Positions 6 through 21,378 of a DNA stretch of 21,378 nucleotides are shown piece after piece (the stretch's first letter is position 1; each line of letters opens with the position of its first letter). Made by a program: the position numbers and the translations under genes. Below the pieces are notes generated by a model. The model worked only from the letters and a program-made list of their open reading frames with translations, ran no database searches and was not told where the DNA came from. The stretch covers positions 1 to 21,378 of the IMG/VR virus record IMGVR_UViG_3300020442_003129; one strand, given 5' to 3'. The DNA is from a virus.

Positions 6-830
6 TTATCCGATCATATCCATTGGTGGGATTGCATACTTACTGAGAACTTCGCTTTCGATTTTCTCAATTTCTGCTAAGGCGTCTGTATAAATTTCTC
101 TACCATTGAGAGTAACACCGCCAGGTAGTTGAACATTGTTATACTTTATTAAGTTCATACCCCACTGTCTCTTCATCAGAGCAGTAGCATATCTCTTTAC
201 AAAAATATCATTGTTCATCTGTGTAGCTTCTGTAGGATCAATAAGACGATGACATTCAATAAGAACTTTAGTTCCTGCTTGAAGGAAGTCTTTATCTATG
301 TCAAGGTACAAACGATCATTACGTGCTGTAAATCTAAACTGTTGGAAAGATCCATTGTTTAGAACCATATCTAGAGTTTCTAGATACTGCTTGTTCATAT
401 AGTAGTTAAGGATATCTAGTGATCCGAATGCATAGAGATCATTCAAGAACAATTGATACTCAACACCAAAGAGATTAGAACGGATTGAGTTACTGACAAG
501 ACCAAATACTCTAGTGATACCAACTACATGATCAGGAATTGGAATGAAGTTTGTTGCTTCTAACCAAGTTCCAGTAGCATTTGGTGTTACATTAGTATCG
601 GTAACTGTCTTAGTAGTTGTTGCTGCAAAACGAGTTTTATCAGCAGCAGTAATTTCGTGATATAAGTATGCACGCTCCATACCATTGTAACAGTTCTCTT
701 GAAAAAACTGGTACGTATCATCAATAACGTTATCGACCTGATCCGTATCTATATTGATCTGCAATACAGGTTCACCCAATTGCCTCTTGCAATATGTTAT
801 AAGATCAGCTCTAGAACTTGGAGATGCCAT
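6..830 (-). CDS. gp13: Neck protein, gp13-like (T4-like cyanophage)
   Basis: The product is 274 residues starting MASPSSRADLITYC and ending PPMDMIG. I recognise the N-terminal pattern (polar start, LITYCKRQLGEPVLQINID, then DQV and an acidic helix with the aromatic pair YQFF) and the IG end as those of the T4-like cyanophage neck family usually annotated gp13; T4 gp13 is of similar size (about 309 residues). Neck proteins gp13 and gp14 complete the filled head and form the site where the tail joins. I chose the ATG at 830, not the in-frame TTG at 839, because homologues as I recall them begin with MA. An AAGAAGGGA ribosome site lies about 13 bases upstream but inside a hairpin. A late-promoter-like octamer lies at 877-884. 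The next gene starts one base after the stop. Family assignment is good; the exact T4 equivalence is from memory. Confidence 0.78.
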   Translation of the reverse strand: MASPSSRADLITYCKRQLGEPVLQINIDTDQVDNVIDDTYQFFQENCYNGMERAYLYHEITAADKTRFAATTTKTVTDTNVTPNATGTWLEATNFIPIPDHVVGITRVFGLVSNSIRSNLFGVEYQLFLNDLYAFGSLDILNYYMNKQYLETLDMVLNNGSFQQFRFTARNDRLYLDIDKDFLQAGTKVLIECHRLIDPTEATQMNNDIFVKRYATALMKRQWGMNLIKYNNVQLPGGVTLNGREIYTDALAEIEKIESEVLSKYAIPPMDMIG

Positions 831-839
831 TACACACAA

Positions 840-876: not shown

Positions 877-884
877 TATTTATT
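877..884 (-). promoter_or_regulatory. Predicted T4-type late promoter for the neck gene
   Basis: The minus strand reads AATAAATA, matching the NATAAATA form of the T4-family late promoter (T4 consensus TATAAATA). It overlaps the GAA-TAA end of the upstream 62-residue gene. By the T4 rule (start about 6 bases after the octamer) transcription would begin near 871, within the first arm of the hairpin, leaving a leader of about 41 bases. Late promoters of this type need no -35 element. No upstream AT-rich match was used as evidence. Confidence 0.5.
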
Positions 885-1068
885 CAGCAGGAGTTTCTGG
901 TGTTTCTCCTTCTGGTTTTTCTTCTAAAAGTTTTAAGGTTTCTAGACCACCCTCTAGTTTAATTTTATATTCTTTTGCTTTAGTTAAATTTGTTTCTAAT
1001 TCACCAATCTGTTTTACTGTAGTGGCAATTTGCTCTTCAAAATTTTTCTTTAATTGTTCAGGATCCAT
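880..1068 (-). CDS. Small coiled-coil protein, conserved in T4-like cyanophages, unknown function
   Basis: The product is 62 residues beginning MDPEQLKKNFEEQ. Residues about 3-50 form a heptad-patterned, charge-rich helix (FEEQIATTVKQIGELETNL, then AKEYKIKLEGGLETLKLLEE), and the last dozen residues are an acidic Pro/Glu/Thr tail. There is no signal peptide or membrane segment. I recall similar small proteins with KAKEYKLKLEGG-type cores beside gp13 in cyanomyoviruses, without known function. The ATG at 1068 is preferred to an in-frame TTG at 1077 because MDPE fits the family start. There is no clear Shine-Dalgarno site. Its own late-promoter-like octamer lies at 1097-1104. A trimeric or dimeric coiled coil acting as a small virion or assembly factor is possible but not shown. 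Confidence 0.75.
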   Translation of the reverse strand: MDPEQLKKNFEEQIATTVKQIGELETNLTKAKEYKIKLEGGLETLKLLEEKPEGETPETPAE

Positions 1069-1096
1069 AGTAATCAAAAATGATATTGTATATGTT

Positions 1097-1104
1097 TATT
1101 TATT
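1097..1104 (-). promoter_or_regulatory. Predicted T4-type late promoter for the 62-residue gene
   Basis: AATAAATA on the minus strand, made from the GAA-TAA-ATA end of the preceding 292-residue gene. The predicted start near 1091 gives a 23-base leader to the ATG at 1068, the same leader length as predicted for the octamer at 3185-3192. Confidence 0.5.
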
Positions 1105-1978
1105 CTACACTAAAACCAATGTAAGAGATAACTGAGGTATCATATGCACTTCTCTTTCCGTTTCCACTAGTTACAGTACCACCACTGTTCCACCAGTTAG
1201 AGTTTCTATGACTCCATGTTCCTTGTCTATCACCACAAGGCAGTTCGTATAGTAATTCCCATCCCTCAGAATCGTTGAATCCCCAGAGTTTTCCCTTTGT
1301 CACACCATTTGCACCACCACCAGAGGATGAGTTTTCTCCTCCAAAGTATCTACCACGAGTATTATCCCGATAGTATCCATCAAAGTCGAAGTTGCCATCA
1401 GGACCAAAGTCCATGACAGCCCAGTCTCCGCCGTCAGATGAACCGTCTCCAGAGATAAACTTCACACCACCATTACTATTTAAGTATGAAACATTTGCAA
1501 GTGGTTCTGCCAACATAGGAATTCTTCCAGAAAAACCACCATTCCACTGAGAATTATTGTTGTTGGATGAGTTCTGGTTTACACCGAAACTGGTAATATA
1601 ACTTAGGAAAGTTTGTGCTCCATTCGGCATTGCAATGTAAGAAATACCACGGGGATTTCCACTAGACTGAATCACAGTAACGTCAGATACATCAACAGCA
1701 CCTGTCACTCTTCCACCTGTTGTTCCCCAAACTGCAGATCCGTCATCTGGATCTACTCCAAAATATACCTCTAACTGCACATCAGTTGAATTATATCCGA
1801 GATAACCAGGACTAATTCCACTGGTAGGTCTATTACCTTCTCCAGCCCAGTTAGGAATAACCAAACTAGCTGGAATAAAACCTCCAGTAAATTCTACTTT
1901 TTGTGTGCTGGTGTTCAAATTCATTGCTAGATTACCAGCATTTGATTGAATTTGAGACAGTCTAATAATGTTTGCCAT
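1100..1978 (-). CDS. Tail-fibre/adhesin-like paralogue 3 (cassette plus Gly/Asn/Ser-rich C-terminal domain)
   Basis: The product is 292 residues. Residues 1-88 form the cassette shared with the two upstream genes: an IQSNAG start, a short beta region, NRPTSGISPGYLGYNST, then EVYFGVD and a final Trp. Residues about 115-292 are a compositionally distinct domain that aligns with the C-terminal domain of the 287-residue neighbour: MPNGAQTFLSYITSFG, an Asn/Ser run, GDGSSDGGDW, FGGE, LWGFNDSEGW, NSNWW, SGGT, SGNGKRSAYD and a final YIGFSVE. The Gly-rich loops and late, fibre-cluster position suggest a surface-exposed virion protein, possibly a receptor-binding tip; I do not recognise a named domain. 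It starts one base after the previous stop with no good ribosome site, so translational coupling is likely. Its own stop codon is part of a late-promoter-like octamer. Confidence 0.8.
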   Translation of the reverse strand: MANIIRLSQIQSNAGNLAMNLNTSTQKVEFTGGFIPASLVIPNWAGEGNRPTSGISPGYLGYNSTDVQLEVYFGVDPDDGSAVWGTTGGRVTGAVDVSDVTVIQSSGNPRGISYIAMPNGAQTFLSYITSFGVNQNSSNNNNSQWNGGFSGRIPMLAEPLANVSYLNSNGGVKFISGDGSSDGGDWAVMDFGPDGNFDFDGYYRDNTRGRYFGGENSSSGGGANGVTKGKLWGFNDSEGWELLYELPCGDRQGTWSHRNSNWWNSGGTVTSGNGKRSAYDTSVISYIGFSVE

Positions 1979-1979
1979 T

Positions 1980-2843
1980 TTATCGTACGCTAAATCCGAT
2001 GTATGTTATTGGTTCGTTGTCATATTCCGAACGTTTTCCATTTCCACTGTTTGTAGTACCGCCAGAACTATACCAATTAGAGTTATTTTTTCCCCAGTTA
2101 CCGCTTGAACTAACTGGTTCTTCCCATAGTTTTATCCATCCAGCAGCATCACTGAATCCCCAAATATAAGCTTTTGAAGCACTTGTACCACTACCCGACG
2201 CACTCTGCTGGATAAATTCACCTCCAAAGAATGCCCAACCACTCTGGTTGCCATTCCATTTCGGGTTAAAGTCACCTCCGCGAAGGTTACCAAAGTTAAA
2301 TAGCACCCAGTCACCACCATCAGATGATCCATCTCCATTGAACATAACCAGATTACCACTGTTGAAATACTGACCGTTCTTTCTATATTCAAAAGACCTC
2401 ACATCATGACCATTTGACCATGAAGAGTTGTTGCTATTACTACTGCTTTGGTTTAAACCAAAACTTGTTACGTAACTCAGTAGAGTTCTAGGTCCGCTTG
2501 GCATAGGTAGATATGCTTTATCAAGCATAGTACCTTCATCGTCCCATGAACTAGTATCTGTGTAATCGTAAGCACTGAATCTAACTCTTGTAGATACACC
2601 AAACCAAATAGGATCACCCAATTCATCAACACCAGTGAATAATTCAAATCTCCTTTTTTCTGTGTTGTATCCAACATAACCAGGAAATAGTCCTGTAGTT
2701 GGACGTGTTGTTTGATCCCAAGTTGACAGTATAACGTTACCTGGATTGTATTGACTAGTTATGTTGATAGTTCCGTCATCATTGACCCCTAAGACGGTAT
2801 CACCATTACTACTTTGTAATTCTTTAACTTTTAAAATTCCCAT
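1980..2843 (-). CDS. Tail-fibre/adhesin-like paralogue 2 (cassette plus Gly/Asn/Ser-rich C-terminal domain)
   Basis: The product is 287 residues. Residues 1-88 hold the shared cassette (KVKELQSSNGDTVLGVNDDG, TRPTTGLFPGYVGYNTE, FELFTGVDELGDPIW). Residues about 112-287 are the second copy of the C-terminal domain: PMPSGPRTLLSYVTSFGLNQ, GDGSSDGGDW, FGGE, WGFSDAAGW, NSNWYSSGGT, SGNGKRSEYD, YIGFSVR. Anchor motifs are almost identical to the 292-residue protein while the segments between them diverge strongly, as expected for exposed loops under diversification. A good Shine-Dalgarno site (AGGAAAG, 2849-2855) precedes the ATG by 8 bases. I infer a virion surface or fibre-tip protein; no enzyme motif is visible. 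Confidence 0.8.
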   Translation of the reverse strand: MGILKVKELQSSNGDTVLGVNDDGTINITSQYNPGNVILSTWDQTTRPTTGLFPGYVGYNTEKRRFELFTGVDELGDPIWFGVSTRVRFSAYDYTDTSSWDDEGTMLDKAYLPMPSGPRTLLSYVTSFGLNQSSSNSNNSSWSNGHDVRSFEYRKNGQYFNSGNLVMFNGDGSSDGGDWVLFNFGNLRGGDFNPKWNGNQSGWAFFGGEFIQQSASGSGTSASKAYIWGFSDAAGWIKLWEEPVSSSGNWGKNNSNWYSSGGTTNSGNGKRSEYDNEPITYIGFSVR

Positions 2844-2848
2844 TTTTT

Positions 2849-2855
2849 CTTTCCT
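2849..2855 (-). promoter_or_regulatory. Strong ribosome binding site for the 287-residue gene, overlapping the upstream stop codon
   Basis: AGGAAAG on the minus strand overlaps the TAG stop (2854-2856) of the 100-residue gene, and AGGA lies 8 bases before the ATG at 2843. Most other genes here lack a clear Shine-Dalgarno match, so this one stands out and supports the start and separate translation of the middle paralogue. Confidence 0.6.
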
Positions 2856-3156
2856 AGTTTGGTGGATCTAAATCATCAGAAACATCTGTTCCAGTAAACA
2901 CAGCCCAGAGAGCATTACCATCAGCATCCACTCCAACATAACATTCAAATTGATTCTGTTTAGAGTTCCATCCAAAAGATCCGTAACTAAGATTGGTTGT
3001 CGGTCTATTTGCAGCACCGTTCCATTGCGGTAAACCAAAATTACTGGGTTGATAGGAACCATCAAATGTGATAGCTCCTCCAGAACCAAGTGACATCACC
3101 TGACTTCCACCTACAGTTTGAACCTTATCTATTTTTAATGCACTAGTTGCACTCAT
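2854..3156 (-). CDS. Stand-alone N-terminal cassette protein (paralogue 1 of the adhesin-like trio)
   Basis: The product is 100 residues and consists almost wholly of the cassette that starts the 287- and 292-residue proteins: KIDKVQTVGGSQVMSLGSGG, FDGSYQPSNFGLPQW, NRPTTNLSYGSFGWNS, FECYVGVDADGNALW. It stops soon after DVSDDLDPPN, where the longer paralogues go on for about 190 residues. Only 10 bases separate its stop from the next gene, so no decayed C-terminal domain is left. It may be a short structural adaptor or cap using the same fold, or a deletion derivative that is still translated. A late-promoter-like octamer lies 29 bases upstream, so it leads the trio. There is no clear Shine-Dalgarno site. 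Function unknown; virion location inferred. Confidence 0.75.
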   Translation of the reverse strand: MSATSALKIDKVQTVGGSQVMSLGSGGAITFDGSYQPSNFGLPQWNGAANRPTTNLSYGSFGWNSKQNQFECYVGVDADGNALWAVFTGTDVSDDLDPPN

Positions 3157-3193: not shown

Positions 3194-6100
3194 TCAAAGG
3201 ATAACCCATGTTGCACCATTTTGAATAGTAACAATATTATTTGTTCCTACTCCAATAGGTCCGAAACTGAAAGCATTTAATCCAGAAGAAATAGTTAGAT
3301 CCTCATTAATGGTTGAAGAAGAAACCTTAACAACACCATATTGATCAATCCACTGCTCCTGACCATTAGCTTTTAATGTTCCAGTGAGGTAGACATCACC
3401 TTCAACATCTAAAGCTTCTCTTGGATCCGCAGCAGATGTGAAGTTAATACCAACTTTTGTTGGTCTGAAAATATCAGTATTATTAGGAGCTTCTGTCCAA
3501 CGAGAAGTTACGAATGGTTTATTATCAACAAATAGATTTCCGTTATTGATATTGAAATTACCTTCAATATTCAATGCATAGAATCTTGTAATAATGTTGT
3601 TTGGATCTGTGTTATCTTGTCCTTGGAAAGTTGTAGTGTTAATAGCAACTCTATTATTAGTTCCTTGGATAGCAAGTGCTGGTGTTGATTTCCAAGTAGT
3701 AGCTCCTTGAGAACCGTCATTAGCAGTAATTTCAAATATATCATTACCAATGATACCATTACCAACACGGAAGTTACTTAGATATCCACCAGAACCATCA
3801 GAACCACCAGTATTTCCTAAGAAATATATTGGAGCTTCATCATTATTAGCAGTTGTTCCAAGTGTCAAACCTGTTTGAGTGACAATCATATTGTCAACAG
3901 TAAGACCATCATTAGTACCACTGTTCTCAATAACAACACCACCATCACCTTGAATGGTTAGTTTGTTAGATGAGTTATTACGGAAGATAAAGTCTCTATC
4001 TGATGCTCTACCATTGAATACCCAGTGTGCTCCCTGACCAGGAACAATGCTACCAGGATTTCCAGATGAAAGGAACATCATTGCATGATTAGTATCATCA
4101 TAATAATTGTCCCTAACATCAAGCAGTAACATATGGTTAGTGCTAGTGATGCCTGTTCCACCACCCTGTATTCTTAGAGCAGCTGTGTTTCCACCTTTGA
4201 CTTCAAGACCAACTGCAGTATCTAATGTTGTACCAATGTTAATACCAACAGAATCTTTACTAGCATCAACAAATAATGTATCAGTATCAACTGCTAAGTC
4301 CTCAGCAACTGTAATATTACTCAAGAAATCTGCTCTACCAGATACCTGTAATGCTTGGTTAGCAGCAACAACATTACTGATGACCAAAGCACCAGTCATG
4401 GTATCACCGCCCTTCAGGACGTTGTTAGATGCAGAACCAGTTAGATTTGCTGTGATAGTACCAGCAGCAAAATTTCCACTCTGATCACGAATAACACCAC
4501 TACCAGCAACGTTTGTTGAATCAAAGGTAATGTTACCTTCGTTCCAAATTCTGTTACCATTAATAGTGAATGCGTTATTATTTCCTACCTTTGTTTCAAG
4601 ACTACCACTACCATTAGTACTACCACCACCTGAAGCGATAAATGCTACGTTGTAATCACTTGCTACAAGTTGAGAAGATCTAAAGTAGATAGAAGGATCG
4701 GACGCTTGACCATCTGCTCTACCAAGTTTTAAGCGAGCATTACCAGAAACACTCTCTCCACTAATAACCTCATATGTTCCATCAATATCTCCATCTGCAT
4801 TATCATCAACCTGTGCAACGTTCCAGTTTTGGAATTGGAATGCATTACCTACACCACCAGTACCAATAAATTCAGCATCATCAAATGAATCAAAATCTCC
4901 ACTTGTTAAACTACCAGTAATTAATGTGTAGTTGTTAGCAGGATCATTAGTATCCTGATTTGGTTCTACCTTTGTGATACTAATTGCACCTCTAGCAATA
5001 CCACTAGCGGTGTAAAGGTTAACTGATTGACCAGCAACGAACGGTGTTGTATTTAAGAGTTCATCTCTGACAAGAACGTTAACTCTAACATTTCCAGTCC
5101 AATCCATAACACGAAGTTTGGATAGGAAATCTTTTTCTCTCTGGAGAACTGGTAATCTTTCATTACTTAAGTATCCAAAGTCCATATGCTGTGCAGACTG
5201 GTACCAAGTTCCTTGGCGACCATCTAATCTGTCAGCGTCCAATCCACTTAATGTACCGTCATTACCAGAATGCCAGATTTCGTGCCAGTTACCAAATGAG
5301 TTTGCTGGACTATTGAAAGATCCACGAAGGAACATACCAGCACCAACATCAGCGTTAGCATCTGTAAATGCAAGTTGTCTTACACCACCAAATGTAGCAT
5401 CAAAGTCAGTACCACCATTTCTGAGGGTAAGAACCATGTGCCTTGTTCCACCATCAGATAGACCATCAGCAGAGTTGTTCTTAGTATCAGCGATGATACC
5501 AGCAGAGAACTCATCAGGTGATGGGTTACCAGTTGGTGAGTTAGTAGATGACTTAAGTCTTAATGTACTACCAGACTGGTTGGAGATATTGATATCATAT
5601 GTACCAGATAGTCTATTGACTGGTAGAGTACCAGCATTCTGGTTTCCAGAGTTTAGATAGAATGCACCTTGTGCTCCATCAAGTGTATCAGCATCAAGAC
5701 CAGAATCAGGACCTGTATTAATCTGAACAGAACCGTTTCCAGCTTCGCCAATTAAGAATTGTTGCTTGAAGAATCTAGCAACACCAAGAGTTCCATATGG
5801 ATCACCAGATGTAGTTAGATCACTAACCCTGTCAACGTCAATTGTGACGTTTGCATACTGACGAAGAACTGTTGTAACCTTAGCTAAAAGATTGAGACCT
5901 GTTCCTCCACCAATTTCTGATGGAGCAGATGATACAATAAAGTCAACATTTTGTTGAGAAGTATTCTGTCCATAATCTTTACCACCAGCAACGATAGTGA
6001 CATCAGTAACTGCACCAGCAGAAACAACTAGGTTTGCTCTTAGACCAGATCCAGCACCACCAGTTAGAGGTAAGTTGAAATATTGTCCGTCAGTAAATCC

Positions 6101-9100
6101 AGAACCACCATTTTGAATAACAACTTCTTCAACGAAACCACCTTCTGTCTGGGAAGACTCAACTGTTAGTGGTGATTTACCTCTGTTAAATTCTAGAACT
6201 GTTCCAGCAGGAAGAGTTGATGTAATGAATTTATCAAGAGTAATAGTTGTATTACCAGATTCAGTTAGAACACCATCAATATTTGTATCTGTTTGAATAC
6301 CAGTAATTGGTACAATATCATGACCTTTTAAGAAGTCAGAATTTGAATCAAAGATTAACTGAGAGGAACCACTGTTTGCTTGAAGTTTTAATTGAGCAAA
6401 GTATCTTGTTTCAGGACCTTTGATTGTCTGTACAGCAGGTGCATATGCTTGGTCTCCTCTCAAGAATGTAAAGGAGTTAGCAGCACTATCAACACCCGAT
6501 GCGTTAGATGCTAAACGTGCTGTAGAAATAACACCTGATGTAATATCAGAAGCAGCAATCTGGTTAGTAGATAGAGATACCCAGTTGTTATTATTGTCAG
6601 CAGATGTGTTGACAACACGGTTGATATTGATTGTCTCAGCAGGAAGATCACTAGAGAGAATTGTATCTGTGTCTACGATCTTAATGTTGTTAACAATGTC
6701 ACCATACAATCTACTTTCAATTAAAGCAGTAGCAGTTGCCTGTGTACCAGATCCTGCAGGAGCAGCGATTGTAATAGTAGGTGGAGTAGTGTATCCCTTA
6801 CCACCAACAAATCCATTGAACAATTCAATGTTCATAATCACAACTTGACCATTAGCAATGGTTGTTGTAATCAATGCGTCTACTGCACCAGCTTGAGGGT
6901 TACCACCAGATACTGTTACAACAGGTGGAGTGATGTATCCAGATCCACCGTCAGTAATGTTAACTTGGAAGACAACACCCTGTCTATATTCAGTTGATTG
7001 GATCTTACCACCACTAACACTACCAGTAAAGACATCACCGATAGTAAATTGTAGTGTTGGGTCAACTGCAAACGAAGTAAATAAACTTTCGTTATCGTTG
7101 TTTAAGATGAACGATGTTGTGGTATCCTGTTGGATAGCAATGTCACCAGCAAGTGCTCCTTCAATTGCAAGTCTTTCATTTTGGTTTGCAACAGTATAAA
7201 CTTGGAAAGGACGTAGAGGTGGAATCTGATCTTCAGAAATCTTACCAGAATCAGTAAGTTCAACCAATGCTCTAGGAACTGGGTTAGTAGAGAAAGGTTT
7301 GTTGATGTAAGGTCCTAAAGCGTTAGTGATAAAGTCTTTAACTGCCTTCTGTGTAGGTAGTTTAGAGTCACTAGAGTTAGCACCACCAAGTGTATTGCTG
7401 TTATCAAAACCAGTAACAACAACATCACCACCTTTCAACTTCAAGAATTCAACTTCAGAGATCGTAACCGTACCAGTGAAGGTGATGTTACCAGTTCTGT
7501 TCTCGATTCTAGCAAATGTACCAACCTTAAAGTCACCTAGTTCGTCAGTACCAGAAACGTATGTTCTACCATAATCCTCAGATACCTGTTCGTTTGCTTC
7601 AATCTTAGTACCACCGTTCTCAGGTAGAGCAAGGTAAGTAGTACCAGAACCAGCATATTCCCAAGTGTGAGAAGAAGAGTTAACAATGGATGGTCTGTGT
7701 AACTTAAGATTTTCTCCAACCAGAGATGCTAGAGAAACTACTTGATCAGTAGCAATGCTCTTAAATGATGCAGGACCTCCAGCACCAGATTCTAATGTTA
7801 ATTGAGCGGAGAAAGGAGGACCAACTGTAACACCCTCTACAGCATCAACAAAGTATTCAATCTCTGGATCAGTATTTACAAATCCATCAATCTTAACAAC
7901 ATAGTGCTCTAGTGGTTCTCTACCGAGACCACTTACAGAGAAGATAGTTCTACCAGTAGGAGTAGAAGAAACGTTAGAGATAGTTGCTTGGTCAAAGTCA
8001 TAACATTCTCTTCTAAATCCTCTTGCTCTTAGAGAGTAGATACCAAAGTTAGATGCAGAGTTAGTAACAGAAGCGTAACCACCAGACTCAGCAAGAATAC
8101 CATCTGCAGTAAAGATACAGAAAACAGAAACCAACTGCACATAACCATCTTCAATAATCTTGTAACCAACACCACCTTCAGAAACAATCGTGAAGGCAGA
8201 TGCAACCATTGACTTACCCTGATTAGGGAACTTAGCAGTTCCATCTAGGTTCAAACCAGGAAATGGGCAGTTAGGTTGTTTAACTTTAGAACCATCAACT
8301 AGAGCACCACCACCACCTAATTTGGAGATGATAGAAGCGTTCTGTGTATATGGAGATGCTTCAATGATTGGGAAGTCATCATAAGTTGATTTTACAGTTA
8401 CTTTATTACCATTAAAGTCAGTAATAACGCTATCTGCATAATTGTATAGACCTGCTGTATCTAATAATGTTCCAGTTGTCTTGGTAGTAGCACCAGGTGC
8501 AACAACACTACCTAGGATATCATCAAGAACACCAAATAGAGTTGTGATAGTAGCTTCTACTTGAGCACATAGAGGGTTTCCAAGAGGATCTGCTAAGATG
8601 CTAGGATCTGTAAATCTTGGAATTGGTGTGAATGAAGCTGTAGTTGGGTTACCAGAAGAATCATTCCAGTTACGCATTGCCTCAATACAGAGGTCTCTTG
8701 CTGCAGTAAATGCATATCTAGTTGCTGGAAGTTCACTTGCAGGAACACCTGTCAATTCTGTTCCTGTGAAATATAGTTCAGCGTAAGTAACAACAGCATC
8801 GTTTCCACCAAGAACTAAATTCTTCAGTAATGCAGAGATTACAAGATTGATATCTCTACGGCATTTACGCTCATCAACGTTATTAAGATTGAGAGATGGG
8901 AACTGATTGATTGCATCGTTGTATGCTTCATCTACAATATGATCTCTGTTTCTAGCAATTAGATATGCAGCATCTAGATATGTTCCAGAAGCATTATTTG
9001 CTAGGACATCTACGAACAGATATGCTAGAGTATCAATAGCAGACTTAACGTTGTTACATGCTCCACCTGCATTTAGATCATCAATAATAGTTGGGTCAAA

Positions 9101-12100
9101 GTATCTTGGAAGACTAGAATATACAGGAGTATAAACAGGATCAGTTACAAGACCATTTCCAGTACGCCACTTACGCATTGCAAAGATAGCTAGTTCTCTA
9201 GCATACTCAATGGCACGTACAGTTTGAATGATTTCAAAGTCAATAGTAGTATCAATGAAAGTATTGGTGGCGTCAATATACTTCTTAGCACCATCAATAA
9301 TATTATTGTTACTACCAAATTCTAAATCTTGAATCAGAGCATCAAGGAAATATCTAATATCTCTCTTACATTTCTCATCGCTAATAGGAATACTGAAACT
9401 AGGATATGTTTTCTGTGTTGTTACACCATCAATAACACACTCAACTACAACACCTTCAAGTTCAATAATACTATCTTCTGCAATGCCAGGAATTGATGTG
9501 TTGACAGTAACAACTGCATTACCAGTAATAGCATGATCATATTGGAAATCAGTTACATTGTAAGTGACTCCACCAAATTTAACAGTACCACCACTAACAT
9601 ATGTGTGTGCAAATCTAGATGCACCTAAGAAAATCTTAAAGCTATCGCCACCAGTAGATAGACTGTTAGAAGCACTTCTAACAAATGTATGAGCAACTTG
9701 AGGTCTGAACTTAACAGCGTCTGCTGTAGACGCTTCAAAGTAGTGCTGTGACTGTGGTTCGTGCTTGATAGCATTTGCTGTAGCACCTGTAAATGTATGT
9801 GTAGTAGTGTTAGAAGAAACACCTACGTTAATAGTAATTGTGCCGTCTTGATGATCAATAGCATTACTAGAAGTGCCACCAACGTATGTGTGGGAACCAG
9901 TATAAGATGATTGACCAACATTAACATCAAAAGTATTTTGAGTTACATTAGAAATTTCCAACCATCTGTTTGATGCAGGATCAAAACCAGCACGAGGATA
10001 GGTCTTAGTAACTGTGTTTCCATCTAGAACACATGTATAAGATAGAGCTCCGTCAGCAATCTTAATGTAATCACCATCTGAGAATCCATGATTTGCAACT
10101 TGGAGGGTTATGTTACCTGTTGCTGCATCGTAAGGAGCATCAGTAACATCATGTTGAGTTGATCCAACCGCAGTAATAGCAATAGATTTCTTATCTGCAT
10201 ATGGATCAATACCAGGACGAGGATAAGTTTTAGGAGATGAAGGATCTTGTAAACAAGTAAATGTTAGTGAATTATTTTCAATAGTAATGTTACGACCAAC
10301 ACCTAAACCATGCTGTCCAATGGTAAGAACCATTTCTCCAGTGCTAGGAGTATAAACAGCATTTGTTGGTTGGAAATATTTGTTAGAAGCAGATGCACCA
10401 ATATTTACAGTAATACCAGTTGCTGTCTTACTTGTAATTTTAACAGATCTGTTAGATGCAGGATCAATTCCTGGACGAGGATAAGTCTTAGCTGTGTCAC
10501 GGTTATCCATGTCACATGTAAATGACAAGGAATTGTTATCAATAATAACACTTCCGCCAACTGGTAGAGAATGAGTTCCAATTTCAAGAACTAAATCTCC
10601 AGTAGCAGGATCGTATGATGTTCCTGATTGTGGAGTAAAATCTTGATCTGCAGGTGAAGCACCAACATTAACAGTAAATGTATCGTTAGTTTTTGATAAG
10701 ATTGGAAGTGCTCTTCCAGATCCTGGATCAGTTGGTCTTGGATAACTATGCTCTGTGGCATTATTATCCATTGCACAAGTAAATGTGAGACTATTGTCTG
10801 CAATAGAAATACCAGTTCCAACATCAAATCCATGTGCAGTACTAGTAAATACTAAGTCTCCAGTTGCAGCATCATAAGTAACATCTGATGGTGTTAAAGT
10901 TTGTGATGTTGAACCACCAATCTCATATACTGAATAAAAGTCTTTACTAAATTCGTCATTGATTCTTCCTACAACTTCATCAGCAATAAACTCTCTATTG
11001 TTCCTAATCTGAAGCGAAGCATCTTGGAATCTTCTAGCAACAGGAGTTGCTTCTTGGAACTTAAATGGTGAGTTAAGTAGAGATAAAGTTACAGACTTAG
11101 AGAAAGATTGAACCTGTGCAAATTGACCAGGATCATAATTGTTGTTAGTTAATGAAGGTAACTTCTTAGGAATAACAAAACGTCTGGATCTACCATCAGG
11201 ATCTTCAATGACTTTATAAATTCTTTGCTTACCATTCAACATGGATAAGTCTGGAGCTGATGTAGAAAGATTTTGGATTAAAATCTCTTCACCTTCTTTG
11301 AAGTCGTGGATGTTATCCGATTCAACCAGTGGGTTTGTATAGAAAATAATACCACCAAGATCTTCAGGTGTACCGTAATCACCAAAACCGCCAGTTGCAA
11401 TACTAGGATCTCCCTGTAGAGAGAAGTCAATTCTACTGATTGGTAGTGGAGGATCTGTTAGGTTAGGTCTGTTCTCAAACACAACCTCACCTTCAGGTCT
11501 AATTGAAATAATGTCGGTTGTAACCAGAGAATATGTGTCTCTAATGTATGTAAATTCTAGAGTTCCTGTTCCGTTATTAGCAGCACCAGTATCATGAGTT
11601 GGGTTTGTTTCTCCAGAGGTACCAGCAACTGTTACGTTGTATACATGATCCTCTGTCCAAACAAGTTGACCAACAGTATATGCTGTTAATGGTTGGAATC
11701 TTTGACTATTTGCACCACCATATACTAATGTTTCACCAGCGTTTACAGAACCAGATGTTTGTACAAAATCAAATGAACCATTAACAAATGCACTATTTCC
11801 AGTAACATCATCAAATTGAACATTTCTAGATGTAACAATACCACCAGCGTTAACACCTCTTAGTTCAATACCAGCTACTAGATTGTTGAGACCTCCATTA
11901 GACTGGAATGTTGTTCTGAAAACTGACTCACCAAAGATTTGATGACCAACAGGGAATTGGGTTCCAGCATCTCCATTTTGAAGGAAATCATAAGTAATTC
12001 TTTGCTTATCGTCAAAGACCATAGCAAAGTCCCAAGTAAAGGTGTCAGCACCTTCTTGGTCTCTATAAGTAACACCAATAACGTAGTTCTTATCACCAAA

Positions 12101-13273
12101 CTTAAATATATGCTTTCTTGGGTTGGCAGGACGAATGATAACCAAACGTAGGTTGTCACCAACAATAGAAGCATCAGGTGGGAGAGACATTGGGTTGTCT
12201 TCCGTGTAGTCACCACCTGCAATAATAATAGATTCTTTTACGCCAGGTGTTTCCCATGCCAACTGACATGCTTTCTTAATTGTTCTAACTGGATTAACTG
12301 GAGAACGACCATCGTTATTGTCGTCACCAATCAATTGGGAAACGTAAATACGACCACCAACGTCATTCGTTGCTAGGTTAAGAACGTATTCAGTAGTTGC
12401 AATCTTGTCAGACTTATCACCCAATAGTGGAGTAATAGATCTTGGATATATTCCAGTTTCTCCACTTGTGTTATAGAAAACTTCGTTTGGATCAGATACG
12501 CGGAAACCAATGTGTTTAAACTGAACACCAGGAACAGGATTATCTAATGGATTACCATTAATTTCAATTCCATCAGTATGAAGAGGTGGATCTAATGGAT
12601 TTGATGATGTAGTACCAACGTTTAATGATTGGTATACATTAGGACCACGGAAAACAAAAGTATTTTGCTGTAATAATCTATCTGGTGCCCAAGGGGTACC
12701 AGTGTTATTCATGAAAGTTTTTAAGTTTGGTGCTCTCTGAGCTGCGTCAGGAGTAACCAAATTATCAATATCTAGGTTTAGAATTCTCGCAGTATCAGAA
12801 ATGATAGATGTAGAAGTTCTGATAGCACCGTTAATATCAAGTTCAAAGTCTACTGTATCGAGAAACGCTGTCGCAGTAGCACCTACACCATTACCACCAC
12901 TAATTGTAATTGTAGGAGCAGTAGTATAACCAGCACCTGGATTATCAATAAGGATACCAGCAACTCTACCTTCTGGAGAAATAGAAGCAGAAGCAGCTGC
13001 TTGGACTGGATTGTCACCTAAAGGAGCACTAACTGTAACCGTAGGTTGAGTGGTGTAACCAGAACCTGGATTATCTACTGTGATAGTGTCAATTCTGTTT
13101 CCAGTTCTATTGATACCAACACGAGGTACTTTCGTTGTTGGTTCAATTAGGGCACGCAAGACCTCTTTTTCATCAGTTCCAGTACCCGATCTCAACGAGA
13201 TCTCGTTATCTCCAATAATTTGGGGAGCACTAGCCCTAATTTGCTCTTTGTCAGAATTAAACTTAAAGCTCAT
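3194..13273 (-). CDS. Giant modular tail-fibre-like virion structural protein
   Basis: The product is 3359 residues (roughly 350 kDa), with no signal or membrane segments. Segments in order: Gly-Tyr-Thr beta repeats (about 63-145); a pectate-lyase-like beta-helix opening with IYVSQLIGDDNNDGRSP and GGDYTEDNPMSLPPDASIVGDNL (306-405); an IYxVT-type cassette (525-578); helical module part A (about 747-775); a degenerate tandem array with C..D...KTYPRPG (798-1298); helical part B with EKCKRDIRYFLDAL and AMRKW (1298-1370) and a second complete helical copy (1432-1532); a further beta-helix-like stretch (1640-1760); the tail-fibre signatures LPTQKAVKDFI and GDIAIQQDTTTSFILNND (1974-2060); more GYT repeats; LDADTLDGAQGAFY and WHSGNDG (about 2518-2692); and a final GPIGVG...TWVIL end. 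These are shared features of cyanomyovirus fibre-like proteins. Role inferred: a long fibre or baseplate appendage. It has a weak ribosome site and its own late-promoter-like element. Confidence 0.88.
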   Translation of the reverse strand: MSFKFNSDKEQIRASAPQIIGDNEISLRSGTGTDEKEVLRALIEPTTKVPRVGINRTGNRIDTITVDNPGSGYTTQPTVTVSAPLGDNPVQAAASASISPEGRVAGILIDNPGAGYTTAPTITISGGNGVGATATAFLDTVDFELDINGAIRTSTSIISDTARILNLDIDNLVTPDAAQRAPNLKTFMNNTGTPWAPDRLLQQNTFVFRGPNVYQSLNVGTTSSNPLDPPLHTDGIEINGNPLDNPVPGVQFKHIGFRVSDPNEVFYNTSGETGIYPRSITPLLGDKSDKIATTEYVLNLATNDVGGRIYVSQLIGDDNNDGRSPVNPVRTIKKACQLAWETPGVKESIIIAGGDYTEDNPMSLPPDASIVGDNLRLVIIRPANPRKHIFKFGDKNYVIGVTYRDQEGADTFTWDFAMVFDDKQRITYDFLQNGDAGTQFPVGHQIFGESVFRTTFQSNGGLNNLVAGIELRGVNAGGIVTSRNVQFDDVTGNSAFVNGSFDFVQTSGSVNAGETLVYGGANSQRFQPLTAYTVGQLVWTEDHVYNVTVAGTSGETNPTHDTGAANNGTGTLEFTYIRDTYSLVTTDIISIRPEGEVVFENRPNLTDPPLPISRIDFSLQGDPSIATGGFGDYGTPEDLGGIIFYTNPLVESDNIHDFKEGEEILIQNLSTSAPDLSMLNGKQRIYKVIEDPDGRSRRFVIPKKLPSLTNNNYDPGQFAQVQSFSKSVTLSLLNSPFKFQEATPVARRFQDASLQIRNNREFIADEVVGRINDEFSKDFYSVYEIGGSTSQTLTPSDVTYDAATGDLVFTSTAHGFDVGTGISIADNSLTFTCAMDNNATEHSYPRPTDPGSGRALPILSKTNDTFTVNVGASPADQDFTPQSGTSYDPATGDLVLEIGTHSLPVGGSVIIDNNSLSFTCDMDNRDTAKTYPRPGIDPASNRSVKITSKTATGITVNIGASASNKYFQPTNAVYTPSTGEMVLTIGQHGLGVGRNITIENNSLTFTCLQDPSSPKTYPRPGIDPYADKKSIAITAVGSTQHDVTDAPYDAATGNITLQVANHGFSDGDYIKIADGALSYTCVLDGNTVTKTYPRAGFDPASNRWLEISNVTQNTFDVNVGQSSYTGSHTYVGGTSSNAIDHQDGTITINVGVSSNTTTHTFTGATANAIKHEPQSQHYFEASTADAVKFRPQVAHTFVRSASNSLSTGGDSFKIFLGASRFAHTYVSGGTVKFGGVTYNVTDFQYDHAITGNAVVTVNTSIPGIAEDSIIELEGVVVECVIDGVTTQKTYPSFSIPISDEKCKRDIRYFLDALIQDLEFGSNNNIIDGAKKYIDATNTFIDTTIDFEIIQTVRAIEYARELAIFAMRKWRTGNGLVTDPVYTPVYSSLPRYFDPTIIDDLNAGGACNNVKSAIDTLAYLFVDVLANNASGTYLDAAYLIARNRDHIVDEAYNDAINQFPSLNLNNVDERKCRRDINLVISALLKNLVLGGNDAVVTYAELYFTGTELTGVPASELPATRYAFTAARDLCIEAMRNWNDSSGNPTTASFTPIPRFTDPSILADPLGNPLCAQVEATITTLFGVLDDILGSVVAPGATTKTTGTLLDTAGLYNYADSVITDFNGNKVTVKSTYDDFPIIEASPYTQNASIISKLGGGGALVDGSKVKQPNCPFPGLNLDGTAKFPNQGKSMVASAFTIVSEGGVGYKIIEDGYVQLVSVFCIFTADGILAESGGYASVTNSASNFGIYSLRARGFRRECYDFDQATISNVSSTPTGRTIFSVSGLGREPLEHYVVKIDGFVNTDPEIEYFVDAVEGVTVGPPFSAQLTLESGAGGPASFKSIATDQVVSLASLVGENLKLHRPSIVNSSSHTWEYAGSGTTYLALPENGGTKIEANEQVSEDYGRTYVSGTDELGDFKVGTFARIENRTGNITFTGTVTISEVEFLKLKGGDVVVTGFDNSNTLGGANSSDSKLPTQKAVKDFITNALGPYINKPFSTNPVPRALVELTDSGKISEDQIPPLRPFQVYTVANQNERLAIEGALAGDIAIQQDTTTSFILNNDNESLFTSFAVDPTLQFTIGDVFTGSVSGGKIQSTEYRQGVVFQVNITDGGSGYITPPVVTVSGGNPQAGAVDALITTTIANGQVVIMNIELFNGFVGGKGYTTPPTITIAAPAGSGTQATATALIESRLYGDIVNNIKIVDTDTILSSDLPAETININRVVNTSADNNNNWVSLSTNQIAASDITSGVISTARLASNASGVDSAANSFTFLRGDQAYAPAVQTIKGPETRYFAQLKLQANSGSSQLIFDSNSDFLKGHDIVPITGIQTDTNIDGVLTESGNTTITLDKFITSTLPAGTVLEFNRGKSPLTVESSQTEGGFVEEVVIQNGGSGFTDGQYFNLPLTGGAGSGLRANLVVSAGAVTDVTIVAGGKDYGQNTSQQNVDFIVSSAPSEIGGGTGLNLLAKVTTVLRQYANVTIDVDRVSDLTTSGDPYGTLGVARFFKQQFLIGEAGNGSVQINTGPDSGLDADTLDGAQGAFYLNSGNQNAGTLPVNRLSGTYDINISNQSGSTLRLKSSTNSPTGNPSPDEFSAGIIADTKNNSADGLSDGGTRHMVLTLRNGGTDFDATFGGVRQLAFTDANADVGAGMFLRGSFNSPANSFGNWHEIWHSGNDGTLSGLDADRLDGRQGTWYQSAQHMDFGYLSNERLPVLQREKDFLSKLRVMDWTGNVRVNVLVRDELLNTTPFVAGQSVNLYTASGIARGAISITKVEPNQDTNDPANNYTLITGSLTSGDFDSFDDAEFIGTGGVGNAFQFQNWNVAQVDDNADGDIDGTYEVISGESVSGNARLKLGRADGQASDPSIYFRSSQLVASDYNVAFIASGGGSTNGSGSLETKVGNNNAFTINGNRIWNEGNITFDSTNVAGSGVIRDQSGNFAAGTITANLTGSASNNVLKGGDTMTGALVISNVVAANQALQVSGRADFLSNITVAEDLAVDTDTLFVDASKDSVGINIGTTLDTAVGLEVKGGNTAALRIQGGGTGITSTNHMLLLDVRDNYYDDTNHAMMFLSSGNPGSIVPGQGAHWVFNGRASDRDFIFRNNSSNKLTIQGDGGVVIENSGTNDGLTVDNMIVTQTGLTLGTTANNDEAPIYFLGNTGGSDGSGGYLSNFRVGNGIIGNDIFEITANDGSQGATTWKSTPALAIQGTNNRVAINTTTFQGQDNTDPNNIITRFYALNIEGNFNINNGNLFVDNKPFVTSRWTEAPNNTDIFRPTKVGINFTSAADPREALDVEGDVYLTGTLKANGQEQWIDQYGVVKVSSSTINEDLTISSGLNAFSFGPIGVGTNNIVTIQNGATWVIL
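5935..6131 (-). repeat. Gly-Tyr-Thr-type beta repeat pair, third block in the giant protein
   Basis: Protein-level repeat: VVIQNGGSGFTDGQYF followed by VTDVTIVAGGKDYGQN. Each unit has a hydrophobic strand, G-G/S-G/K-(Y/F/DY), then a second strand and a Gly-rich turn. The pattern matches the blocks at 6705-6967 and 12840-13087 and those in the neighbouring genes. Confidence 0.55.
6705..6967 (-). repeat. Gly-Tyr-Thr-type beta repeat pair, second block in the giant protein
   Basis: Two units, ITDGGSGYITPPVVTVSGG and GGKGYTTPPTITIAAPAG, each followed by an Ala/Thr-rich strand. The unit is about 35-45 residues. Likely a small beta-sandwich or beta-hairpin spacer in the fibre; the fold is inferred from the alternating hydrophobic pattern. 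Confidence 0.6.
8665..9381 (-). repeat. Duplicated helical module (KCxRDI ... AMRxW) in the giant protein
   Basis: Two copies at protein level. Copy 1 includes DEKCKRDIRYFLDALIQDL, an amphipathic stretch, and AIFAMRKW. Copy 2 includes DERKCRRDINLVISALLKNL and LCIEAMRNW, preceded by YLDAAYLIARNRDHIVDEAY. The Cys and the RDI, ALxxxL and AMRxW positions are conserved. The start of copy 1 (FQDASLQIRNNREFIADEVV) lies far upstream at about 10948-11033, separated by the tandem array. Related helical modules are, as I recall, common in cyanophage structural proteins; their role is not known to me. Confidence 0.65.
9380..10882 (-). repeat. Degenerate five-unit protein repeat array (YDxATG ... C..D ... 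KTYP) in the giant protein
   Basis: Four clear units start near 10882, 10620, 10363 and 10140 (about 75-87 codons each). Each has YD/YT-x-(A/S)TG, an I-x-H-G-L type loop, NSLTFTC followed by a short acidic turn, KTYPRPG(I/F)DP, then an IT-x-V-N-(V/I)-G-A-S end. A shorter repetitive zone follows (about 9560-9905; HTYVGGTSSNAI, HTFTGATANAIK, HYFEASTADAVK). A divergent fifth unit ends the array (9380-9547): YDHAITGN, ECVIDGVTTQKTYPSFSIP. Cys and KTYP are kept in all five. Repetition is at protein level; the DNA copies are diverged, so this is old or subject to selection. Confidence 0.7.
11545..11702 (-). repeat. IYxVT/HxxG cassette in the giant protein (second copy in the 1423-residue gene)
   Basis: The segment QPLTAYTVGQLVWTEDHVYN, then VTVAGTSGE, NPTHDTGAANNGTGTLEF, matches at conserved positions the segment around 14895-15110: VVGDYLKYRNNIYEVTAV, then GNPPIHNSGATTNGDLEL. 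Shared are the VG-x-L-V/K-x, V/IYxVT, P-x-H-x-(T/S)GA-x-xNG and L-x-F positions. It is a short beta module resembling those attached to carbohydrate-binding proteins, but I cannot assign a family. Confidence 0.5.
12055..12360 (-). other. Pectate-lyase-like beta-helix segment of the giant protein
   Basis: Residues about 306-405 read GGRIYVSQLIGDDNNDGRSP, a TIKKACQLA helix, IIIAGGDYTEDNPMSLPPDA and SIVGDNLRLVIIRPANPRK. The order (YVS..G.D.N.G.S, a short helix, then G.Y.E and SI.G) is the usual opening of right-handed parallel beta-helix proteins of the DUF1565/pectate-lyase superfamily, which many phages use in fibres and tailspikes. No catalytic residues can be assigned from sequence alone, so a structural role is as likely as a depolymerase. 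Confidence 0.55.
12840..13087 (-). repeat. Gly-Tyr-Thr-type beta repeat pair at the N-terminus of the giant protein
   Basis: Two units: ITVDNPGSGYTTQPTVTVSA and ILIDNPGAGYTTAPTITISG, about 48 residues apart. They match units at 6705-6967 and in the 1423-residue and partial upstream proteins. Confidence 0.65.
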
Positions 13274-13832: not shown

Positions 13833-16800
13833 TTACCTCTTAGTAATTTGAGAGACTACGGTGAATTCAACATCATCACCACTAGTTAGGCTAGTATCTA
13901 GTGTAAATGTAACTCTAACGTTTCCAGCATCATTCAAATCAAACACTGTGCTGAATTGATTTACTCCTGTTGAAATATTACCAATTTCAGAGAAGAAAAC
14001 ATCAGTTCCTTTATCAGTAACAGAATATTCAACAATTTCTTTATCACCAGTAGAGGTATTGTGTCCTGTAATGATCACTTTTGCTGATGCTTCAACAGAA
14101 GGATCATAGATAACTGCATCTCCTTCGTTAAGTGTTCCTCTTTCTAGAGTTACTTTCTTAGTTACAATTTTAAAATCAGCAATTTCAAGTTCTTTAAGTT
14201 CACTATCAAATAACTTAATACCATTGTAAGTTCCTGTTCCAAAACCTAGGTTGTAGAAAACGTCACCAGTATCAGTTAATCTAAGTAATGGGTCAGTTGT
14301 AAGACCAGAAGACAAACCAAGATCAAAAAACTCTCTGGTAGAGAACAAGAATGTTTTATCACTATTTGTATTGTCTAGTGTAGTTGCTAGATCAGAAAAT
14401 GTAATTGTGGCAGCATTAATATTAAATGTATCTGATGTTTCCGAATTAAGAGTATCTACACTGTAGAAATCAAGTCCAGAACCTGTTAATTGAAGCGTAT
14501 TACTATTTTGATTATAGAAGAATAAAATATCTTCATCAGCGCCAGGAGCTGACTCTGCCTGAATGAAAGTATCCTGATCAATATCTTTAACACCACCTAG
14601 ACCACCCCACTGTGCTCCATTGTATCCTTCAAACTGATTATCGTCAGTGTTATATCTTACAGATCCTTGTGCTGCATTTCCTTTTTGGTTATTGTTTCCA
14701 ACAGGAAGAACTAAAGAAGAACTAGCATTAATAACTGCTTTCTGTCCAGGATTTGGTTGAAGCACTAAATCATTAGTATCTGTTGAAATTGTATTTCCAG
14801 ATATACGAATTTCATTGTTGATAACTAAATCTGTAAATCCTAATGGATCAATATTAACCTCTGAAATTTCTTCAAATGTAAGAGAAGAAACTGCAGTAAC
14901 AGAGAAAGTAAGTTCTAAGTCACCATTTGTAGTTGCTCCAGAATTATGAATAGGAGGATTTCCACTAGAAGCAGTTAAGTTGATAGCTCCTGGTGCAGTG
15001 TTTGTAACCGCTGTTACTTCATAGATATTATTTCTATACTTAAGATAATCTCCTACTACTGCTGGACTATTTGCTGTCCAGTTACTATAAGCTGGTGCTG
15101 CAACATTAGGAGATCTTACTTTCTTAACATTAACAAATTCTTGATATTCAGTAGTAAATCTAACCGTATTTACAGCGTCATTATAGAACCATAATGTATT
15201 ATCATTTGCACCCACAGTCTCCTCTGCGAGAATGTAGGTATTGCCATCCTGATCCCTTACTCCACCAAGTGAAGACCAAGAAGTAGTAGAAGCACTATAT
15301 CCTTCATATGATTGACTATCTGTATTGAAACGAATTGCTCCATCTTCTGTTACGCCAGGTCTTTGAGCATCAGTTCCAACAGGAATAACAAGAGATGTGG
15401 ATGAGTTAACCTTGACTGATTGACCTAATGATGGAGTAAAGGTAATATTAGAACCAGCAGCAGATGAAACTACATTATCAGTAATGAAAAGTTTGTCATT
15501 GATATTTACAGAGTTTAATGTCTTAAGAACTCCTGTAACTTCAAGGTTTCCATTAGCATTATCAAAACTTCCTTTTCCTGAAAAATCTATGCCTCCTGAA
15601 AGATTAATTTGAGATGCAGTAATATCTAAAGTTCCACTATTATTGGTTATCTCATTTAAACTAATAGTATTTCCACTAATATTTCCAGAGGTCAGACTAG
15701 AGATATTACCACTTGAGGAACTTAAGGTAGAACTGGTAAGTCCTGCAGCAGTTAACATCCCAGTCAAAATGTTATTACTAATGATATCTACTTCATTAGT
15801 AGCCAAAACTTCAAGACTAAATCCAGAACCAAATGTTCTTGGGTTGTTTAAATCAACAGTAATTAATGCTTCTTCACCATTTTTTCCACCAACGTCTGAT
15901 GCCTCTGGGGAGTAGTAATAGAGATTTGGAGTATTATCATCTATTAAAATTGTTAGTTCATTGATTGTTCTAGTAACATTTCTGATAAACTCAAATCCTT
16001 TGAATTCTAATTGTACAGGACCAGAAGTTAGAGCAACATTACTTAATGTGATCGTTGTTCCATTGATAGATTCAACTACGGTATTTGGTAGTAACGCACC
16101 TGTTCCACTCAATACAGTTACTTCCATTCCAACAACAATGCCAGCAGCAGAGTTGACTGAAATATCTTTAGATACGTTTGATAATGTTGTTGATACAGGT
16201 GTAACAAGACTTGGAGCATGAATACCATCAGGATATGAACTAAGTGCAAATCCGATGCTTGTTAGAGATGAATCTTGAATATTAAAGACATATGTGTTTC
16301 CAGAATAAAATGTAAGATCTGGAAGTAATAATGGATTTCCAGTATCACCCAAAGAAAGGAAGTAGTAATCTTGAGGATTGGTACATGTATCTACAGTTCC
16401 TATTGCAGTATTAGTACTATCTTCTAAGTCATCTCCATTCTGAAGAACACCACCTAAAGCATTAAGGAAAGCTCTTGTTATATTGCCACCAGCAGATTCA
16501 ATTTTAAAAACTTCATATTGAACTGGAGTACCACCTCCCTCACCACCAGTTGCTGTCTGTATAACATCTCCTACTGCAAAAGCAGATGTAGAAACGTTTC
16601 CAGTAAAAGTTATTTCAATAACTGATGCAGAAGTAACTACGTATTCAATTGGAGAAACTAAATTTTCAGCATCTACAGAAAGTAAATTTCCTACTTCATA
16701 TCCAGTACCACCTTGAGTAATAGTAACATTGTTTACTGTTCCAACTGCTCCAACTGTATAAGCAAAAGGAGTAGTGCCTGAACCAAATACTTGTCCAAAG

Positions 16801-21300: not shown

Positions 21301-21378
21301 TTCTACATCACCAGTCCAAGTTGCATTCTCAAGTGGTGGTAAACCAGCAGGAACAACAATTAGTCCACTAGCATTACC
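18307..21378 (-). CDS. Large virion structural protein of T4-like cyanophages, 5' end outside the window
   Basis: The frame is open to the window edge (1023 residues visible), so the GTG at 21252 is internal and the true start lies upstream. I recognise several stretches from a conserved cyanomyovirus structural protein: PNPLAQTFKIENLDGGCFVT followed by GVDLFFSKK (about 20960-21057), SLGSVYRSQNTESW with EDLKFNLYRAEF (about 20020-20120), a SPIIDLSSASVKTVSNRI segment (about 19330-19400), and a C-terminus with SSFAIKIVMLGVDPAF, VPKIQDIRAVAAF. Two Gly-Tyr beta units occur near 20380-20560 (ITNTGQNYDSAILTIESP; SLPGFGYTEAPSVVVKG). There are no membrane or catalytic motifs. Lying upstream of the fibre-like genes, in the place of T4 baseplate wedge genes, it may be a baseplate-peripheral component; this is positional inference. 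Confidence 0.82.
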   Translation of the reverse strand, partial: GNASGLIVVPAGLPPLENATWTGDVETLPYDTSADEVSITSGVLTFRFTSSSTNAPKEEVDSYTEVKYYATGLLPENPASIVSTKPSYFKSNEGVQLIESNTDNPVRPNPLAQTFKIENLDGGCFVTGVDLFFSKKSTNIPVKTYISNVDAEKPAKNIVPGSEKTLSPNTFLKCFASGNVAVYVGENVTGASSSASGPILKIFDKNNVELVATASGKFSLTNEQVYTVVLSNHNGKTFVQNEDLIIPSITEANALNNTDLVLSIAKDSGKVSKMRITNTGQNYDSAILTIESPQLPGGSTATAGIEVSGGQIYNAEVSLPGFGYTEAPSVVVKGVGNGAGGCEIQTFIEIDTPAVRMGVATDAGEVTNSTTPTHFAFEYPVYLQNDTEYALVVETDSTDYELWVSKLGETDIATSTVITTQPSLGSVYRSQNTESWTEDIFEDLKFNLYRAEFNITRPAELLLKNENLGYELLDANPIETNASSNSASTSTLFKNNNAVVKVNHRDNGFEDSGKSYVFYRTAVETGGITASTINSNLFKVMNSGVDSYNILSPSQAAGNSLGGGTSVYASHNRKFETLYPQIHYLTFTGTTLDVSVQTTNVIPVDSSTTNYTSYSQAEYERTFLNEPHYFTNQKMIASEINETLNNLQRSLTYKMQLSSTSSNLSPIIDLSSASVKTVSNRIENAHGEENRFGRRDQVIEFFPVYQFELAGNAGTELQANQTIEGQTSKTTGTIARVNGQVVYVRVKTSQFFQKGELVSLGNQTALTNVVVDSNPSQVFASIDDGATIEARNPAVILDTYENIITGKTVIWNNQTQELTARVDVNPINDNYTDRIIDNAFYNRNANTDQQLQDIFRVGDFIKYPNQPDEEANYLEVGKITYTNGIDFVAEDTSKNGSAVAKYVTKEVVISSPATAIDVHLMANVKDISNIQVLYKFKKASSQENFEDIDWILFNGNGQPDTLELATTENTISSVVEKQSSYQDLKYSVSDIDEYSSFAIKIVMLGVDPAFVPKIQDIRAVAAF
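20380..20560 (-). repeat. Gly-Tyr-type beta repeat pair in the partial structural protein
   Basis: Units MRITNTGQNYDSAILTIESP and VSLPGFGYTEAPSVVVKGVG, separated by an Ala/Gly strand, match the pattern of the units in the two large downstream genes. Confidence 0.55.

Follow-up and report, generated by a model that had tools for sequence, protein, structure and literature searches.

Replacement of the receptor-binding domain carried by a conserved anchor is a known phage strategy, and distant marine phages share host recognition modules (PMC10579305). In cyano- and pelagimyophages, the stretch from the baseplate gene VrlC to gp14 has been described as a hypervariable host recognition cluster (PMC7029224). 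The proteins that set the host range of cyanophages are still poorly mapped. Escherichia phage CBA120 encodes its receptor-binding tailspikes TSP1-4 in a four-gene array just upstream of gp13, and Mtd of phage BPP-1 joins an N-terminal beta-prism to a distal receptor-binding domain. In the baseplate anchor of TSP4, a triple beta-helix is combined with a beta-prism II and a linker of four glycines (PMC8825819). In phage S-PM2, the genes S-PM2d089-091 (T4-GC 831-833) are flanked by a ~3,340-aa fibre-like gene on one side and by the small GC834/gp13 pair on the other, and their products are annotated as virion structural proteins. During chemostat coevolution with Synechococcus WH7803, a series of SNPs appeared early in 089 and 090 and later apparently reverted (PMC9910659). 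Here we describe a locus in the same slot, with three genes named A, B and C.

Organisation of the locus

The window, that is the whole stretch of DNA analysed here, is a 21,378-base fragment of a T4-like marine cyanophage (cyanomyovirus) from an IMG/VR virus record. Both megablast and the gp13 sequence place Kyanoviridae and other Synechococcus phages as the nearest isolates. All of its main genes are carried on the minus strand, in the order baseplate-like gene, structural genes, 3,359-aa fibre-like gene, C, B, A, 65-aa gene and gp13 (Table 1). Small structural proteins, together with a 1,423-aa and a 169-aa structural protein, are encoded between the baseplate-like gene and the giant fibre gene. 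By the published definition (PMC7029224), the trio belongs to the host recognition cluster: its genes lie near the fibre genes, with a VrlC/gp7-like baseplate gene on one side and gp14 on the other.

Table 1. Features of the window, with positions counted from its first letter (aa, amino acids)
Feature	Position	Strand	Basis
Baseplate-like protein	18307-21378	minus	window ORF
1,423-aa structural protein	13833-18104	minus	window ORF
3,359-aa fibre-like structural protein	3194..13273	minus	same position and size as S-PM2d088 (3,338 aa)
Gene C, 100 aa, cassette only	2854..3156	minus	same form kept in relatives
Gene B, 287 aa, cassette and domain X	1980..2843	minus	orthologs in L001/L002/L012 at 83-89%
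B N-terminal cassette, aa 1-90	2574..2843	minus	sequence comparison
B beta-prism II-like cassette core, aa 39-84	2592..2729	minus	predicted-structure match to CBA120 TSP3 D4
B C-terminal domain X, stop codon included	1980..2573	minus	sequence comparison
Gene A, 292 aa, cassette and domain X	1100..1978	minus	ORF, alignment, BLASTP
A N-terminal cassette, aa 1-92	1703..1978	minus	~90% DNA identity to gene A of L001/L002/L012
A swap junction, aa ~92-96	1690..1705	minus	identity to close relatives stops, homology to unlinked domain X copies starts
A C-terminal domain X, stop codon included	1100..1702	minus	70% identity to L013 copy
65-aa protein, phrog_580, between trio and gp13	880..1077	minus	PHROGs
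gp13 neck protein (head-tail adaptor Ad2)	6..839	minus	85% identity to Synechococcus phage Sf-CH1b

An initial annotation of this DNA had placed three adjacent genes with a shared N-terminal cassette at this position, and pairwise alignment bore this out; all three ORFs are on the minus strand. Using BLASTP, A and B were found to be 40% identical over 293 columns (E 5e-50; 40-42% over their full length), A and C 37% identical over 95 columns (E 1e-14) and B and C 35% identical over 78 columns (E 1e-12). The cassette common to the three proteins spans their ~85-90 N-terminal residues with a similarity far beyond chance, and its invariant residues across A, B and C include R-P-T, G, N, E, G-V-D and W. 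The C-terminal domains of A and B, of ~200 residues each and referred to here as domain X, are homologous and 48-51% identical. All the anchor motifs that had been named in this domain were recovered in the alignment, but the description of the segments between them as differing greatly was overstated, the two copies being 48% identical and their predicted strands and loops equally conserved.

The product of gene C consists of the cassette only. A protein of 96-101 residues is encoded at the same position in the related contigs L001, L002, L012, L021 and L022, and dN/dS values of 0.15-0.30 among close relatives indicate purifying selection. The kept length in five relatives, combined with this selection, rules out a truncated copy; C is a maintained cassette-only protein.

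The N-terminal cassette as a candidate anchor

The core motif of the cassette, RPT..GxxGYN....E.y.G(V)D...W, recurs in the same-slot products of phages S-H9-1, S-H9-2, S-MbCM7, Syn1, S-CAM4, Sf-CH1b and S-PM2. Scans with the cassette of A only and of B only returned just the three known relatives. Pfam and NCBIfam gave zero matches for A, B or C; in PHROGs the cassette was the only part of the trio to be clearly matched, to families of unknown function, and against PDB sequence profiles it yielded chance-level matches only (a penicillin-binding protein, E 0.26). Two cassette-like beta-prism repeats were also detected in the 1,423-aa structural protein of the window (aa ~881-960 and ~1081-1200, HMM E 1.5e-6 and 6.7e-6), so the module is reused outside the trio. 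Genes with a 2OG-Fe(II) oxygenase-like product were observed beside those of cassette proteins at L030 6171-6737, L031 6084-6728 and L032 4878-5477 (Sf-CH1b, S-CAM4 and Syn1); this label is annotated in S-CAM4 and Syn1 and was given by sequence resemblance in Sf-CH1b.

The structure of B was modelled as a single chain with AlphaFold2 (pLDDT 68). Residues 39-84 of this model matched the beta-prism II of CBA120 TSP3 D4 (Z 5.2, rmsd 1.6 Å over 41 residues), and the modelled cassette matched residues 7-49 of BPP-1 Mtd (Z 4.0) and TSP4-N (Z 2.8); these matches are short (~41 residues) and their Z scores, of about 5 or lower, are at a level that may reflect a mere common arrangement. At the same place, the model of a protein bearing domain Y, an unrelated tip found behind this cassette in relatives and described below, matched TSP3 D4 and the trimerization domain of collagen XVIII. 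The prism core of TSP3 D4 is lined with Asn, Trp and Pro (PMC6517402); Pro51, Asn63 and Trp84 are invariant in the cassette alignment. The sequence of the TSP4 anchor carries the cassette motif as TGLPSSVRYNPDSDEFEGYYENGGW, and was aligned with the cassette profile by hhalign at an E-value of 0.0019, though with a probability of just 14% (a weak similarity); none of the 957 scored shuffles reached the score of the TSP4 anchor on the cassette. The cassette is probably best described as a beta-prism II anchor that would trimerise and that resembles the anchor of TSP4.

Short cyanophage proteins were present among the BFVD fold matches of two models, namely E3SI53 (82 aa), A0A0E3FAL9 (79 aa) and A0A0K0KVP4 (131 aa), of which one bears the name virion structural protein (P-TIM68). 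Proteins that, like C, have the cassette but no tip may be common.

Domain X and the replacement of the gene A tip

The C-terminal domain, which had not been recognised in the initial annotation, likewise belongs to no Pfam or NCBIfam family and has no PDB sequence-profile match; in PHROGs only a marginal match to phrog_16700 was obtained (E 0.046). The PDB profile match of domain Y, to an allophycocyanin (E 0.09), was at chance level. Domain X was found in 14 IMG/VR contigs besides the window, behind four kinds of N-terminus: the cassette, in gene B of L001, L002 and L012; a 196-residue N-terminus in L013, L014 and L015, a gene of which L048 has just the end; a short N-terminus among different neighbouring genes in L016-L018 and L027; and a short 'MPVF/MPLL' N-terminus in L028, L045 and L046, where the gene stands immediately upstream of gp13. 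Neither a tblastn search of 50,697 phage records, up to E 10, nor a pattern scan of 84,980 bacterial and archaeal genomes, confirmed by tblastn, found a copy. The match in L004 proved spurious, this contig being unrelated. At L013 3410-5229, a 196-aa protein consisting of the N-terminus only adjoins a paralog with the same N-terminus and domain X (35% identity over 194 columns), and the pair is preceded by a cassette-like 140-aa protein. In the context shared by L016-L018 and L027, the domain X gene follows a 119-aa gene (L016 613-972, L027 3203-3562) for which the homologs in S-CBWM1 and DSL-LC04 bear the annotation 'putative lectin'.

In the AlphaFold2 model (pLDDT 68) domain X is predicted to be mostly beta. 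Its best Foldseek match was CBM32 at E 0.1 and its best VIA match was MATH at Z 3.0, both weak. The CBM32, MATH, intelectin and fibrinogen folds considered for domains X and Y were too weakly matched to serve as assignments, and the lack of a strong fold-library match to the model does not mean that the fold is new. Among seven domain X sequences, the mean pairwise identity was 0.48 in predicted strands and helices and 0.48 in loops (p = 0.63), with strands and loops assigned from this middling-confidence model, and the strongest anchors (SFG.NQ.SSN, GDGSSDGGD and SGNGKRS.YD) are located mostly in predicted loops. A division into conserved anchors forming the core and variable parts forming loops is unsupported given this equal conservation, and the diversification of exposed loops that had been proposed from the sequence finds no backing in it. 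The conserved loop anchors may form one shared site.

The contigs L001, L002 and L012 are collinear with the window, and their genes C and B are 83-89% identical to those of the window. In their gene A, a cassette with ~90% DNA identity is followed by domain Y, an unrelated domain of ~230 residues: identity drops to background past nucleotide ~276 (codon ~92) and is found again in the 3' flank of gene A and in gp13. The break falls where homology to unlinked copies of domain X sets in, as residues 198-395 of L013 align with residues 94-291 of A and residue 27 of L028 and L045 aligns with residue 93 of A. The domain X of A is 70% identical to the L013 copy, which is in another virus and behind another N-terminus, versus 51% identical to that of B. 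In the more distant relatives L021 and L022, domain Y is present on both A and B, and we infer from this that, in the simplest course of events, X reached B before it reached A.

Phylogenetic analysis separated the histories of cassettes and tips. The cassettes form clades by gene position (support 0.92-0.96), and placing the A and B cassettes of L022 in one clade was rejected (p = 0.0015), whereas the domain Y tree groups by genome and a positional grouping was rejected (p = 0.0003). The cassettes are orthologous by position and, as read from these trees, are old paralogs rather than products of a recent triplication. The neighbouring A and B copies of domain Y in L022 (3718-5699) group by genome while their cassettes group by position, and exchange between neighbours is likely there. 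Since cassettes sort by position and Y by genome, the tips move independently of the anchors, between phages and apparently also between A and B. In gene A this is replacement of a domain, and not drift of exposed loops, with a tip that probably came in from another virus.

These results bear on the history first proposed for the locus, in which tandem duplication was followed by diversification of exposed loops and the domain X of A is a diverged copy of that of B. A and B are indeed adjacent, similar in length and alike over their full length, and grouping of tips within a genome does exist, for domain Y in L022. We nevertheless regard this history as improbable: the tip of A is nearer to that of L013 than to that of B, the closest relatives bear an unrelated tip on the same A cassette beyond a sharp junction, and predicted strands and loops are equally conserved. 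Holding the domain X of the window's A together with that of its B met with a borderline rejection (AU p = 0.0498), so the case against the X of A being a copy of that of B rests mainly on the identity gap and on the Y-bearing relatives. A metagenome assembly chimera could also create a domain switch of this kind, the window and its three close relatives being metagenomic IMG/VR contigs and the switch being seen between different assemblies. Such an artefact is scarcely credible here, as the junction matches a domain boundary set by unlinked homologs, neither the reading frame nor the stop codon nor the 3' flank is disrupted, and Y stands behind the same cassette in three contigs, with the neighbouring gene B collinear throughout.

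Probable receptor-binding function and comparison with known systems

The same-slot cassette proteins of other cyanophages carry a Laminin_G_3 (LamG, E 3e-16) or COLFI/fibrinogen-like (E 2e-4) C-terminus. The adhesin-like, receptor-binding nature that had been suggested for the trio gained support from these other tips on the cassette, from the slot in the host recognition cluster and from the annotation and coevolution of the S-PM2 genes. Our conclusion is that A and B most likely serve in the virion as receptor-binding proteins whose tips can be exchanged. We propose that the trio are fibre or baseplate-tip proteins attached to the virion of this T4-like cyanophage. Each cassette would form a small trimeric anchor joining the protein to the particle, in which a beta-prism II comes after an N-terminal region of strands. 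Past a short linker, A and B would display the ~200-residue domain X, which would touch the host surface and bind a receptor there, its ligand probably being a glycan, and the tip-less C would perhaps serve as an adaptor or cap. Anchors are inherited by gene position, while tips pass from one phage to another and apparently also between the A and B genes of a single phage, and recombination at the boundary of cassette and tip would replace the receptor-binding domain in one step. To this explanation as a whole, an anchored trio with exchanged receptor-binding tips, we assign a probability of roughly 0.74.

The three proteins might instead be structural or decoration proteins of the virion, with lectin-like tips that provide a general hold on cells or mucus and do not set host specificity. 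The tips swapped onto the cassette include common lectin folds (LamG, COLFI-like), the giant fibre could be the main adsorption organ, and mutations in adaptation experiments hit other structural genes too (PMC9910659, PMC6224464). The slot in the host recognition cluster and the mutation of same-slot S-PM2 genes under coevolution speak against a role of this kind, which we consider rather unlikely. A more elaborate arrangement would be an obligate mixed trimer A:B:C. The tip-less C would complete the prism and restrict how many tips there are, and a single fibre would then show two exchangeable receptor-binding domains of different kinds. Pointers to it are the C-B-A order in which the cassettes of three distinct clades are conserved across the window, L001, L002, L012, L021 and L022, and a second locus, in L013, where a protein with the N-terminus only is placed beside a paralog bearing domain X, but we hold it to be very doubtful.

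Among the closest described systems is the trio of S-PM2, where 089, 090 and 091 all carry the cassette (E 1e-8, 1e-6 and 3e-5); they differ from A and B in having other C-terminal tips, domain X being in no phage record searched. The T4-GC_349 / phrog_1325 proteins of S-MbCM7, S-H9-1 and S-H9-2 share the slot, the cassette type and the occurrence in tandem copies, but have COLFI/fibrinogen-like or LamG tips instead of X, and their genes are interleaved with ~120-aa genes that the window does not have. The array of CBA120 resembles the trio in its position just upstream of gp13; its tailspikes have enzymatic beta-helix bodies of several hundred residues and XD1-3 branching domains, both of which A and B lack. 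In contrast to BPP-1 Mtd, the trio varies by replacement of whole domains, with no C-type lectin tip or diversity-generating retroelement identified; the ORF list of the 21-kb fragment showed no evident reverse transcriptase-like gene.

Swapping of tips is a known route to altered attachment, and the locus is an unusually clean example of it, as a natural one-step exchange between near relatives. New here are the family of domain X, the gene A swap with its sharp definition, and a partner that is maintained as a cassette only. The locus offers a small nameable unit, made of a ~90-residue anchor and a ~200-residue tip, and domain X represents an undescribed putative tip family common to several marine phage lineages. 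Combined with the coevolution data of S-PM2, it opens the role of this slot to direct testing.
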